Origin: a virus
Strand: one strand, 5' to 3'
DNA: 23,665 bases
IMG/VR virus record: IMGVR_UViG_3300031801_000619
Coordinates: 1-23,665 of that record
Made by a program: the position numbers and the translations under genes. Under the pieces are notes generated by a model. That model searched no databases. It was not told the origin of the DNA and saw only the letters and a list, made by a program, of their open reading frames with translations. This document shows positions 4,353-23,137 of this stretch, piece after piece (positions within the stretch are counted from its first letter, which is position 1; each line of letters begins with the position of its first letter).

Positions 4353-4739
4353 ATGGCATATTCAGAGAAAGTAATAGATCATTATGAAAAACCGAGAAAT
4401 ATTGGTAGTTTGGACAAGCGGAGTAATAGTGTCGGTACTGGTCTTGTGGGCGCTCCAGAGTGCGGGGATGTTATGAAACTACAGATACAAGTAGATGACA
4501 ATAATAAAATTATCGATGCAAAATTTAAGACATTTGGTTGTGGTTCTGCGATTGCAGCATCTTCACTAGCAACAGAGTGGATTAAGAACAAGACGGTAGA
4601 TGAAGCTAGTATGATACAGAATACTCAGATAGTTGAAGAACTTTCTCTTCCACCAGTTAAAATACATTGTTCAGTACTTGCAGAAGATGCAATTAAAGCT
4701 GCAATCAAAGATTATCAACAGAAAAATGAAAAACTTTAG
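4353..4739 (+). CDS. iscU-like: Fe-S cluster assembly scaffold IscU/NifU N-domain-like
   Basis: This 128-residue protein is a full-length IscU. It keeps the three cluster-ligand cysteines C37 (APECGDV), C63 (FGCGSA) and C106 (IHCS), D39 and H105, and also LPPVK at residues 99-103, the motif by which the chaperone HscA recognises IscU. The N terminus AYSEKVIDHYEKPRN is typical of the family. All functional residues are present, so it should be able to work with the host IscS and HscA/HscB. It follows the IscA-like gene after a single base, and its last 14 bases overlap the start of the methyltransferase gene. Confidence 0.95.
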   Translation: MAYSEKVIDHYEKPRNIGSLDKRSNSVGTGLVGAPECGDVMKLQIQVDDNNKIIDAKFKTFGCGSAIAASSLATEWIKNKTVDEASMIQNTQIVEELSLPPVKIHCSVLAEDAIKAAIKDYQQKNEKL

Positions 4740-15881: not shown

Positions 15882-16970
15882 ATGGAAAAGTTAAGACGAG
15901 TACTTTTGTTATGCTTTTCTATATTAATATTCTCTGGTGTTTCGGTACAAGCCATCACCAGAGAAGTCATAGAAGAGGTAAGAAAGTCGGTAGTATTACT
16001 ATCGTTAAATAAATTAGAAAGCCCACCCGTTGGCGCCCGTAATGCGTTGTGTTCTGGAACAGTCATCAACGAACAAGGTCATATATTGACTAATTTTCAT
16101 TGTGTGTATGAACAGAAAACAATGAATCTGTATTACTGGGATGAAGATGATTGGCATGAATATACAGTAGAAATAATTGGTAAAGATCCATTAGCAGATT
16201 TAGCCGTGCTTAAAGTAGTTGGACTAACAAGAAAAGTTCCATACTTAAAGTTTGCTGATAATGAGGACATACATTTAGGAGTAGAAGTCTTTGCTTTCGG
16301 TCATCCGATGGGAATGGCGTGGAGTCTATCAAAGGGTATCATCTCCAGTACTGAAAGATATGCAAGACATCCTTACATTAAGTCGATTCAAATAGATGCT
16401 GCAATTAATAAAGGAAATTCCGGCGGACCTGTACTTAATGAAAAGGGTGAAATTGTAGGAATTGCTTCATTACTTGTATCTAGAACAAATCAAAATGCAG
16501 GAGTTGGAATAGCAATTAGAGCCGATATTGCAAAAAAATCACTTGTTGAGATGTTAGCGACAGGGAAAGTAGATCGCCCAGCATTAGGGGTTATGATTAT
16601 TCCTCTGTATGGGAAGGCTAACCAAAGAGAAAAAATATTCAAGGATAATCCTAGTATAAATACATCAATCCCTAATACTTTCGGTTTGATGATAAGTGAC
16701 AAAAATAAACCAATCAATCCAATACCTAAAGGATTGAGAGCATGGGATACCATAATAGGTATTAATGATATTGCTATCAACAATGATGTTGAATTTGCTG
16801 ATCAGCTAGGAAAATATAAAATCGGTGATACAGTTAGTATCAATATTCTTAGAGATAAACGATTTATACAGATCGACAATATTACTCTAAAAGTATTTCC
16901 TGTTCCAACGAAATTATTCTATGGAGAACAGCCGCAAAAAATACAGATTCCGAACAAAAAGAAAAATTAG
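15882..16970 (+). CDS. degP-like: HtrA/DegP-like periplasmic serine protease with one PDZ domain
   Basis: The 362-residue protein has a signal peptide (residues 1-24, ending SVQA), a trypsin-like domain with intact triad H73 (TNFHCV), D106 (ADLAVL) and S180 (GNSGGPV), and one C-terminal PDZ domain (about 235-340, containing WDTIIGINDIAINN). HtrA proteases act in periplasmic quality control and can also work as chaperones. Bacterial DegP usually has two PDZ domains, so one makes this DegS/HtrA-like in layout. In a phage it might process envelope or tail proteins, or relieve envelope stress before lysis. AGGG precedes the start. Confidence 0.93.
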   Translation: MEKLRRVLLLCFSILIFSGVSVQAITREVIEEVRKSVVLLSLNKLESPPVGARNALCSGTVINEQGHILTNFHCVYEQKTMNLYYWDEDDWHEYTVEIIGKDPLADLAVLKVVGLTRKVPYLKFADNEDIHLGVEVFAFGHPMGMAWSLSKGIISSTERYARHPYIKSIQIDAAINKGNSGGPVLNEKGEIVGIASLLVSRTNQNAGVGIAIRADIAKKSLVEMLATGKVDRPALGVMIIPLYGKANQREKIFKDNPSINTSIPNTFGLMISDKNKPINPIPKGLRAWDTIIGINDIAINNDVEFADQLGKYKIGDTVSINILRDKRFIQIDNITLKVFPVPTKLFYGEQPQKIQIPNKKKN

Positions 16971-20018: not shown

Positions 20019-20329
20019 TTTTGAATTTGATTAGCCTTAATCTAATCCAAATGATATTGACAGTTGTTATTATTGTCTTAATTACTTCTTGTGCGCCCCC
20101 TAACTCTCCATTATGGATATACAGTTTAGAGACACTACCAAAAGTTGAGGGTTTCATACAATCAGGAGTGTTTACTATAAACGGAAAACTATATGTACAA
20201 AATTGTGATTCGGGTGGAAATCAAATATGGATGAGATACAATGAAGAAACTCATACATGGAGACAAAGTAGATATAACACATTTGGATGTCTTAGAGGTG
20301 AAGATGCAACAGGACCAGAATCCGGATGA
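19988..20329 (+). CDS. small lipoprotein
   Basis: I prefer ATG 19988, nine or so bases after a GGGGGG purine run, to the ATG at 19979 that touches it. The 113-residue protein has a lipoprotein signal with a long hydrophobic core and lipobox LITSC (C35 from this start). The mature part is short, with VFTINGKLYVQNCDSGGNQI and a WRQSRYNTFGC segment giving two cysteines that may form a disulfide. I do not recognise the family. Envelope-anchored phage lipoproteins can block superinfection or help lysis; nothing here decides between these. It overlaps clpS by 26 bases. Confidence 0.72.
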   Translation: MVCKNQKEKIILNLISLNLIQMILTVVIIVLITSCAPPNSPLWIYSLETLPKVEGFIQSGVFTINGKLYVQNCDSGGNQIWMRYNEETHTWRQSRYNTFGCLRGEDATGPESG

Positions 20330-20669
20330 GTTCGTGGATGACATGGACAGGATGGAAGAAGATTTAGCAGTAGCACGTTCTCGTAAAAAGAAACATCTAG
20401 GGAACAAGGTAAAACCCCCTTCTAAGTGGGCTGTGATTATACACAATGATGATTATACTCCAATGGAATTTGTAGTTTTTGTTCTAATAGAAATTTTTCA
20501 TCATCCACCTGAACGAGCAGAAAGAATTATGTTATCTGTACATAAAGATGGAATGGGAGTCGCAGGAATATATCATTTAGAGATAGCAGAACAGAAGGCC
20601 TTTGAGACAGCAGAAGAAGCAAAAGAACATCAATATCCCCTAAACATTAAAGTAGAGAAAATAGCATAA
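20304..20669 (+). CDS. clpS-like: ClpS-like ClpAP adaptor
   Basis: ATG 20304 follows an AGAGGTG site. From it, the 121-residue protein has a polar N-terminal tail (1-38) and a ClpS core: HNDDYTPMEF (47-56, with N48, D49, D50 and M54) and IMLSVHKDGMGVAG with H80. These are the residues that bind the alpha-amino group and side chain of N-degrons in ClpS. The KAFETAEEAKEHQYPLNIKVE ending is also typical. ClpS delivers N-end-rule substrates to ClpA. A phage copy could redirect host ClpAP. It is followed after one base by the next gene. Confidence 0.92.
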   Translation: MQQDQNPDEFVDDMDRMEEDLAVARSRKKKHLGNKVKPPSKWAVIIHNDDYTPMEFVVFVLIEIFHHPPERAERIMLSVHKDGMGVAGIYHLEIAEQKAFETAEEAKEHQYPLNIKVEKIA

Positions 20670-20670
20670 G

Positions 20671-21144
20671 ATGTCAGATAAAGTGTATCTTCCAATGGAC
20701 CCTAATAAACGAGATGAATTGCGTTATGCAATGGAGACACAGTTTCGATATAAATTTTATAATTCTACTGAGTTTCCCTTTCTCCCATCAATGGGAATAA
20801 GACATATCTTTCAATCGTTTGAAATTAAAGAAGTATTTGAATATATTGGAATGTTACATCTATGGTGGACAAATGAAGATAATGGAATTGTGTATGACAA
20901 CCCAAGAAATTTTGTTAAAGGAACTTGGCATGGGGTGTGGTATGATAGACCACAAGAAGGTATTGAAAGGGCAAATGAATTACAAAAAAATGATTGTATA
21001 GATTTAGAAAAATTGTATCAAGTACATTTAAACTACCATAATGATCTCCAAAAAAAGAAAACTAAGGACGCTATTGAAAAACATGTGAGAGAAACATTAG
21101 AGCTGGATGACTCATTACCAGACAAAAAAACATTACTAAATTAG
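20671..21144 (+). CDS. hypothetical protein, 157 residues
   Basis: The protein is soluble and rich in aromatic residues (FRYKFYNSTEFPFLP, MLHLWWTNEDNG, KGTWHGVWYDRPQ), with a helical charged C terminus. There is no metal site or catalytic motif I recognise. It starts one base after clpS and is likely co-translated with it, so a link with proteolysis is possible but not shown. Confidence 0.75.
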   Translation: MSDKVYLPMDPNKRDELRYAMETQFRYKFYNSTEFPFLPSMGIRHIFQSFEIKEVFEYIGMLHLWWTNEDNGIVYDNPRNFVKGTWHGVWYDRPQEGIERANELQKNDCIDLEKLYQVHLNYHNDLQKKKTKDAIEKHVRETLELDDSLPDKKTLLN

Positions 21145-21505: not shown

Positions 21506-21685
21506 ATGTCAAGTATAACTAGTTTTACAGAAATTTGGAATGGACCGAGTTTCTTGGAAAGAAAACCTTCAGCTCTTAGAATGGCTGCAAGAGATGAAGC
21601 TGGAAAAAAGAAACGTGAAAAGTCAGGAAAATTAAAGTCAAGAGAACATTTTGCTAAAGATTGGGACAGAGACTTGTGGGATTAA
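21506..21685 (+). CDS. 59-residue hypothetical protein
   Basis: ATG 21506 follows AGGAAAAATATT. The product has a Ser/Thr/aromatic N-terminal part (SSITSFTEIWNGPSFLERKP), a basic middle (GKKKREKSGKLKSRE) and an acidic aromatic end (DWDRDLWD). It is hydrophilic and has no known motif. Confidence 0.6.
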   Translation: MSSITSFTEIWNGPSFLERKPSALRMAARDEAGKKKREKSGKLKSREHFAKDWDRDLWD

Positions 21686-22187: not shown

Positions 22188-22199
22188 TTTTAACTGATA

Positions 22200-22205
22200 T
22201 ATAAT
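22200..22205 (+). promoter_or_regulatory. -10 box for the putative noncoding RNA
   Basis: TATAAT ends five bases before the first paired base of the RNA at 22210, so predicted transcription would start at about 22211-22212. The -35 region (around 22176-22183) is poor, so the promoter would be weak or need an activator. Confidence 0.4.
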
Positions 22206-22209
22206 TATG

Positions 22210-22461
22210 AAAGAATAAAGCCTAAGCATTCATAGGATAGGTAAGGTGGTTTAGAGGTAGAGGAAAGCTTCGTTGAGCGGACTTCTAGGGTAACATCCCC
22301 TTCAATGACTCTAAGGTAAGAATGTTATGTGTGAATGTTGCGATGTAATCCAATAGGCATCATCTGCATACACTAGAGCGGCGATGACGATTCGTGAGAA
22401 GTTCGCAGGCCAAAGGTTCTAGGTATCGAAGTACAAGGACATGAACATGGCTTTTTCTTTT
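22210..22461 (+). ncRNA. putative structured noncoding RNA with paired ends
   Basis: This is the longest gene-free stretch of the window and is visibly richer in G and C than its surroundings. Its ends pair: AAAGAA (22210-22215) with TTCTTT (22455-22460) and AAAGCC (22217-22222) with GGCTTT (22449-22454), interrupted only by T22216; TTCAT (22229-22233) pairs with ATGAA (22441-22445) just inside. Internal helices can be drawn: AGGG/CCCT (22287/22298) inside TTGA/TCAA (22273/22302); CTCTA/TAGAG (22309/22374) enclosing TGTGTG/CATACA (22328/22367) and GATG/CATC (22342/22358); GCTTCG/CGAAGT (22267/22427); GCGA/TCGC (22381/22403). A T-rich run follows. It is no tRNA I can fold, and no known class is identified. 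Confidence 0.6.
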
Positions 22462-22478
22462 ATAAAATATAAAAAAAT

Positions 22479-22895
22479 ATGATGTGGATGATCATCATCA
22501 TACTAGCATCAACACTAAGTCTTAGTGGATGTGCAGATACCGCAGATGCCGAAACCGCATCTATAGCTACGACAGAATCAAACAACGATTCAACGACAAC
22601 AACAAGTAGTGGTGATACAGTATGGGCTGCAATAGTCATGACATGGAACCCTGTCGTTTATACAATAGATAAAGAATTTACTAGTGAAGTGGACTGCTGG
22701 AACTATTACGATACTGGGGCGGGAGAAAGTAAAATGCTAAATACCTACGGCATACAAGTTCTAGACCATCAAGGCAATAAGCCTGACAAAGACTACATGA
22801 AAAAACATCGCCCTTCACACCGAGAATACCCAACCAGAATGTACAAGAATAACGGAGGGTGGATGGTCTGGTTAACGTGTGATATAAAACAATAA
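22479..22895 (+). CDS. small lipoprotein
   Basis: The 138-residue protein starts with a compact lipoprotein signal (MMWMIIIILASTLSLSGC, C18). A Thr/Ser/Asp-rich linker follows (about 19-47, including STTTTSSGD), as in tethers that cross part of the periplasm. The folded part has VWAAIVMTWNPVVYTIDKEF, VDCWNYYDTG and WLTCDI, with two cysteines that may pair. I do not recognise the family. No Shine-Dalgarno precedes the ATG, and the leader is AT-only sequence after the noncoding RNA. Confidence 0.75.
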   Translation: MMWMIIIILASTLSLSGCADTADAETASIATTESNNDSTTTTSSGDTVWAAIVMTWNPVVYTIDKEFTSEVDCWNYYDTGAGESKMLNTYGIQVLDHQGNKPDKDYMKKHRPSHREYPTRMYKNNGGWMVWLTCDIKQ

Positions 22896-22912: not shown

Positions 22913-23137
22913 ATGATTACAATAAAAATAGGGCCAAAACAAGACCCTAAGAGAGCAATGCAGAAACTAAAGAATAAACTCATCAATGAAGGTCTATTCA
23001 TAGAGTTAAAAAAACGTAAATACTATGCAAAACCTTCCCTCAAGAAGAGGTTAAAGAGAGAAGAAGCGGCAAGACAAAGAGTAAAAGATAAACATAAAGC
23101 AATACGAAATGCTTTAAAATCGGATGAAGGTTGGTGA
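22913..23137 (+). CDS. rpsU: ribosomal protein bS21
   Basis: The 74-residue protein matches bS21. It has an N-terminal strand ITIKIGPKQDPKRA, the helix MQKLKNKLINEGLFIELKKR, KYYAKPSLKKR and a basic C-terminal helix ending in KSDEGW. bS21 sits on the 30S platform near the anti-Shine-Dalgarno sequence and aids initiation. Phage copies are known, notably among phages of SAR11 bacteria, where they may replace host bS21 and bias translation towards phage mRNA. The end overlaps the next gene by 14 bases. No clear Shine-Dalgarno precedes it. Confidence 0.9.
   Translation: MITIKIGPKQDPKRAMQKLKNKLINEGLFIELKKRKYYAKPSLKKRLKREEAARQRVKDKHKAIRNALKSDEGW

Follow-up and report, generated by a model that had tools for sequence, protein, structure and literature searches.

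The window analysed here, the whole of a 23,665-nt stretch of DNA from an IMG/VR virus record, contains a segment near its end (22188-22478, + strand) in which an ORF check on the + strand found no plausible gene. An earlier note, made from the letters alone, had called this gene-free segment a candidate new structured phage RNA, which raises the question of whether a real folded RNA is encoded there and, if so, what kind of element it is. Energy folding of the 289-nt segment gave -74.8 kcal/mol (z = -2.57), with 2 of 200 shuffled sequences folding equally well, and the opposite strand did not stand out (z = -1.09). The G+C content of the RNA segment was 43% compared to 35% for the window. The pairing ends were present, with AAAGAATAAAGCC (22210-22222) opposite GGCTTTTTCTTT (from 22449). 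As first described, the segment precedes a lipoprotein-like ORF (22479-22895) and then a bS21 gene (22913-23137), the latter matching Pfam Ribosomal_S21 (E 5.2e-11). No tRNA or tmRNA was detected in the window by ARAGORN and Rfam.

First homologues, 72-90% identical, were reached by way of proteins related to the neighbouring bS21 and to the product of 20671-21144, and a wider set was collected from IMG/VR using patterns taken from conserved stretches of the RNA. A covariance model built from 38 aligned copies (R1) gave 72 matches spread over 71 of the 90 sources, plus L134 and L135; with the addition of L038 and L059, both near-identical to the window, the family was found on at least 75 IMG/VR contigs, the window copy (22211-22461, +) being one of them. 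Real copies scored at least 66 bits and chance matches in coding DNA at most 18 bits. Three weak R1 matches that share TCGAAGTACAAGGACA were rejected as coding, L142 and L154 lying inside a DNA polymerase gene and L151 being near-identical to L142.

The family had no counterpart in the collections searched. A nucleotide search of INPHARED phages with four family members returned nothing relevant, and exact-pattern scans of 84,980 species genomes in GTDB gave zero matches. The Rfam search that the earlier note had proposed was run on the window with Rfam 15 and no family matched at the gathering score. A lax Rfam search with the window segment and five other family segments gave only chance matches (snoRNA families, OmrA-B) far below threshold, and RNase P RNA covariance models gave no match to the same six segments up to E = 10. 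Via Rfam, the GOLLD, ROOL and OLE models showed no sequence or structure match to the RNA; the models for these RNAs in PMC12286853 came from Rfam and are hence covered by the Rfam searches. Scans of 20 window proteins against Pfam and/or PHROGs found no reverse transcriptase, the hallmark of a retron. Judged by these comparisons, the RNA is a previously uncatalogued family relative to Rfam 15, INPHARED and GTDB (exact pattern). The marine RNA motif Ocean-VI is tabulated in PMC2864571 without an Rfam accession.

The alignment of 38 copies (A2) contains twelve helices with 65 pairs, and 94.9% of cells were paired compared to 86.6% in shuffled alignments and 34-45% with slid partners. Changes on both sides were counted for 37 pairs and 223 cells, and on each of five measures all 500 shuffles fell short. 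In a larger alignment (A3, 69 distinct rows), biased towards the structure through having been fitted to it, 96.9% of cells were paired, with 51 pairs and 477 cells changed on both sides. Uncompensated variation at paired positions in homologues had been set beforehand as one outcome that would refute the proposal, and the variation found was compensated. With homologues found, compensation at the paired positions and no match to a known family, the proposal of a new structured phage RNA held, and comparison of sequences confirms the segment as a real folded RNA with a well-shown fold. The features of the window copy are as follows.

22200..22205, + strand: TATAAT box, possible promoter element just upstream of the RNA, no -35 box
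22211..22461, + strand: structured RNA, full covariance-model span in the window copy (251 nt); R1 254 bits, E 7.5e-63, the window copy being in the training set; 37 other aligned homologues
22217..22222, + strand: P1, 5' strand, closing helix of the whole RNA, pairs with 22449-22454; 4 of 6 pairs changed on both sides, 95.6% paired
22225..22326, + strand: 5' domain, by covariation; a separate model (R2) finds the 5' domain in the second L041 copy (48 bits, E 1.2e-8)
22225-22231/22320-22326, + strand: P2, closes the 5' domain, by covariation
22251-22256/22309-22314, + strand: H3, by covariation
22258-22262/22283-22287, + strand: H4, by covariation
22267-22269/22276-22278, + strand: H5, by covariation
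22288-22290/22298-22300, + strand: H6, by covariation
22329..22334, + strand: H7, 5' strand, long-range helix that closes the 3' domain, pairs with 22443-22448; long-range covariation, e.g., in L067 and L064
22340..22367, + strand: H9 hairpin of variable length, loop swaps between alternative modules; all 6 pairs changed on both sides, module identities
22368..22426, + strand: H10-H12 arm with GUGA tetraloop; arm replaced in L017, L097, L134 and L135
22373-22379/22416-22422, + strand: H11, 7 of 7 pairs changed on both sides
22380-22393/22398-22411, + strand: H12, nearly invariant, GUGA loop at the tip; conserved GACGATTCGTGAGAAGTTCG at 22386-22405
22427..22438, + strand: joining strand CGAAG(UAC/GCC/GCU)AAGG, nearly invariant, by conservation in the alignment
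22443..22448, + strand: H7, 3' strand, pairs with 22329-22334
22449..22454, + strand: P1, 3' strand, covaries with 22217-22222 and continues into the U-rich 3' end

The 12-bp end helix described in the earlier note is present and its 6-bp core (22217-22222/22449-22454) covaries across gene contexts, with G-C, A-U and U-A all found at one position. The outer part of this helix was, however, seen only in the gene context of the window, and the same was true of the further 5-bp AU helix, neither being supported as a general feature of the family. H7 joins ATGTGYGA to TCRCAT near the 3' end, with compensated variants ATGTGGATT/AATCCAT (L067) and ATGTAGG/CCTAT (L064); the energy minimum of the window alone missed this helix and paired parts of the 3' domain otherwise. 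A candidate pseudoknot, in which the H5 loop would pair with the strand preceding the 3' side of H3 (alignment columns 83-87/122-126), was 84.6% paired, with covariation at or below that of shuffles on most measures. No column showed clear coupling to the swapping triplet UAC/GCC/GCU of the joining strand. Pairing of GUACAAGG with 16S rRNA was also weighed and rejected, 8 nt being within chance expectation and the GCC and GCU variants breaking the complementarity.

Parts of the fold are exchangeable. In the second L041 copy, P1 and the 5' domain are retained, with compensated changes, and a short hairpin takes the place of the 3' domain; where the H11/H12 arm is replaced the GUGA tip is kept in L097, L134 and L135. 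The window copy is itself a mosaic: P1 is as in L004-L006, the 5' domain is closest to L041 (96%), H4/H5 are closest to L034/L050 (96%, compared to 46% to L004), and H9 and the H11/H12 arm are identical to L004. At the position of the H9 hairpin (window 22340-22367), a near-identical insert, TTAAGTCCCTGTCATTTCAGAGATGATATTCAA, is found in many copies across gene contexts (e.g., L030, L064, L071), and the H9 loops of other copies are unrelated to it.

The earlier note had also pointed to a TATAAT box at a suitable distance and to a T-rich end. The box does lie a few bases before the helix, but it is not accompanied by a -35 box and promoter-like sites in the window region were at chance level (4 found, 4.1 expected). 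Of 28 non-redundant copies, 13 had TATAAW or KATAAATA in the 30 nt upstream, compared to 10% of control gene ends; this enrichment of TATAA-like boxes is suggestive only, the RNA flanks being more AT-rich (76% compared to 69%). The T-rich end recurs across the family: a run of at least six U, formed partly by the 3' strand of P1, was found at the 3' end of 16 of 31 non-redundant copies and at 4 of 369 control gene ends. Sigma-70 promoters were not enriched upstream or downstream of the RNA copies. In L035, L041 and L135 a near-consensus sigma-70 promoter begins just past the 3' end, and the RNA there therefore need not lead the next gene. A separate transcript would not be general, because about half of the copies carry no clear promoter box or U-tract.

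The RNA is co-directional with its neighbours and its start is commonly a few bases from the upstream stop codon, often overlapping. The nearest genes form 27 combinations of flanking families, in which one upstream family can be followed by several downstream families and the reverse, and the distance to the downstream gene varies widely. The translation link that had been offered, as speculation, from the bS21 neighbour does not extend to the family, as the RNA is followed by bS21 in no gene context other than that of the window. RNA-free junctions occur in relatives: the upstream gene is kept in L007/L008 and the downstream one in L021-L024, and the L021 contig bears its RNA elsewhere, at a different junction. 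The whole contigs searched that carry the RNA have one copy each, including contigs of 76.8 kb and 34 kb, with the exception of L041 (two); contigs are fragments, so these copy numbers are lower bounds per genome. A 177-kb relative (G001) does not carry the RNA, which is therefore dispensable.

A permuted tmRNA is the next downstream gene in at least seven contigs. A tie specific to these two RNAs was rejected, because the 177-kb contig, which lacks the RNA, carries a tmRNA as well. Permuted tmRNA is common in these T4-type marine phages, with varied tag peptides (e.g., L168:6704-7003, on the 177-kb contig), and was also seen in L041, L065, L068, L075, L078, L082, L120 and L135. Two permuted tmRNA genes (L044:697-1126, L062:565-917) have a short protein gene lying between the acceptor and coding parts, by eye a homologue of the window ORF at 21506-21685. 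GC-rich, possibly structured stretches with no Rfam match lie straight after the RNA in two contigs (L065:585-690, L095:181-260).

The T4-type primase of the window has its best matches in cyanophages (about 41% identity), its ribonucleotide reductase most resembles those of phages infecting SAR116, Roseobacter and Rhizobium, and the 76.8-kb relative encodes a T4-type DNA polymerase. The permuted tmRNA in RNA-bearing contigs is of the alpha type, which points to Alphaproteobacteria as the probable hosts. Other proteins of the window include a NifU/IscU-like Fe-S protein (4353-4739), a protease-like protein (15882-16970), a ClpS adaptor (20241-20669) and bS21 (22913-23137).

Several explanations other than an RNA gene acting in trans can be set against these observations. 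That an AT-rich spacer folds by accident, or that coding sequence was misread, would fit the single-sequence fold, which is only moderately unusual (z = -2.57), but at least 75 contigs carry homologues with compensatory changes and the covariation refutes this explanation, to which we assign a negligible probability. A riboswitch or leader controlling the next gene is highly improbable. The RNA does sit 5' of a gene and marine T4-like cyanophages have the leader RNAs manA and wcaG (PMC2864571), but there was no match to the Rfam models of either; the downstream genes, in 27 flank combinations, are unrelated and form no consistent class, and in several contexts a tmRNA or a gene with its own promoter comes next.

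An explanation in which the RNA-coding DNA is mainly a recombination joint, conserved at junctions for the exchange of modules between co-infecting phages in a way comparable to the promoter/stem-loop cassettes of T4-type phages, draws on the pairing of upstream families with several downstream families and vice versa, and on the mosaic window copy, with its parts from L004-L006, L041, L034/L050 and L004. Pure DNA homology would not maintain pairing through compensatory change, however, and exchange may be a consequence of the RNA and not its function; we consider this explanation improbable. Somewhat less unlikely is a context-independent cis element that helps any operon, as an exonuclease block, a processing site or a separator of translation or transcription. 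In its favour, the RNA is always co-directional, packed between genes and commonly a few bases from the upstream stop codon, with a U-tract in about half of the copies. The conservation of loops and joining strand is, however, far above what a barrier needs, there is about one copy per contig and not many, the spacing to the downstream gene is highly variable, and what follows may be a tmRNA or have its own promoter.

Promoter/stem-loop cassettes of T4-type phages, which consist of a short promoter and a hairpin, are junction elements linked with module shuffling; the RNA described here also lies at gene junctions but is a 250-nt covarying fold. GOLLD and ROOL are, like it, large structured RNAs of phages and prophages without a known role, theirs often near tRNA islands, and GOLLD likewise combines one variable and one conserved region (PMC12286853). 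Many GOLLD RNAs exceed 800 nt (PMC12286853), whereas the present RNA is about 250 nt, has no Rfam match and lies mostly within protein operons. The T4 RNAs rnaC and rnaD (species 1 and 2 stable RNAs) are small RNAs of a T4-type phage to which the record assigns no role, but they measure 139 and 119 nt and lie in a tRNA cluster; homology was rejected after an unfiltered R1 search of a 4-kb T4 region, in which the best match scored 6.8 bits and was not on rnaC or rnaD. manA and wcaG (RF01745, RF01761) are also structured RNAs of marine T4-like phages (PMC2864571), but are thought to regulate particular gene sets, and the present RNA does not match their models. Permuted tmRNA (RF04321) is a structured RNA of the same phages and lies directly downstream in several contigs, but it is a separate gene and the present RNA gives no tmRNA or tRNA match. 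The best reading is of a new RNA family of the same broad kind as GOLLD, ROOL and T4 rnaC/rnaD, comparable to them in kind and not homologous.

We favour a trans-acting RNA gene because the RNA is context-independent, occurs at about one copy per contig and has conserved loops. That T4-type marine phages carry here a mobile gene of about 240-270 nt for a structural RNA acting in trans is in our judgement slightly better than an even prospect. Such an RNA would be transcribed with the surrounding operon, and also alone in copies flanked by a TATAA-like box and a U-tract; its fold would be released or protected at P1, and its action in trans would depend on a bound partner, either a protein or a ribonucleoprotein. 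Our first guess for this partner is the host ribosome or translation machinery, solely on the ground that tmRNA, tRNAs, bS21 and ClpS are also encoded by these phages. We give this guess little weight, as the 177-kb relative that lacks the RNA has a tmRNA too. More tentatively, and at somewhat short of even probability, the RNA may represent a new class of trans-acting phage RNA, built on a conserved scaffold whose arms can be exchanged; during infection it would bind a ribonucleoprotein of the host or the phage, perhaps the ribosome or the trans-translation machinery, and it would move between junctions by recombination.

Only a small number of large structured RNAs are known from bacteria and phages, and several of these rank among the most poorly understood of all RNAs. 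The family described here is directly testable, since its fold is compact and covaries strongly, its gene boundary is clear and natural variants in which arms have been swapped are numerous, and its covariance model can be used for searching viromes and infection transcriptomes. It shows an RNA gene that moves among junctions and recombines by module in ocean phages.
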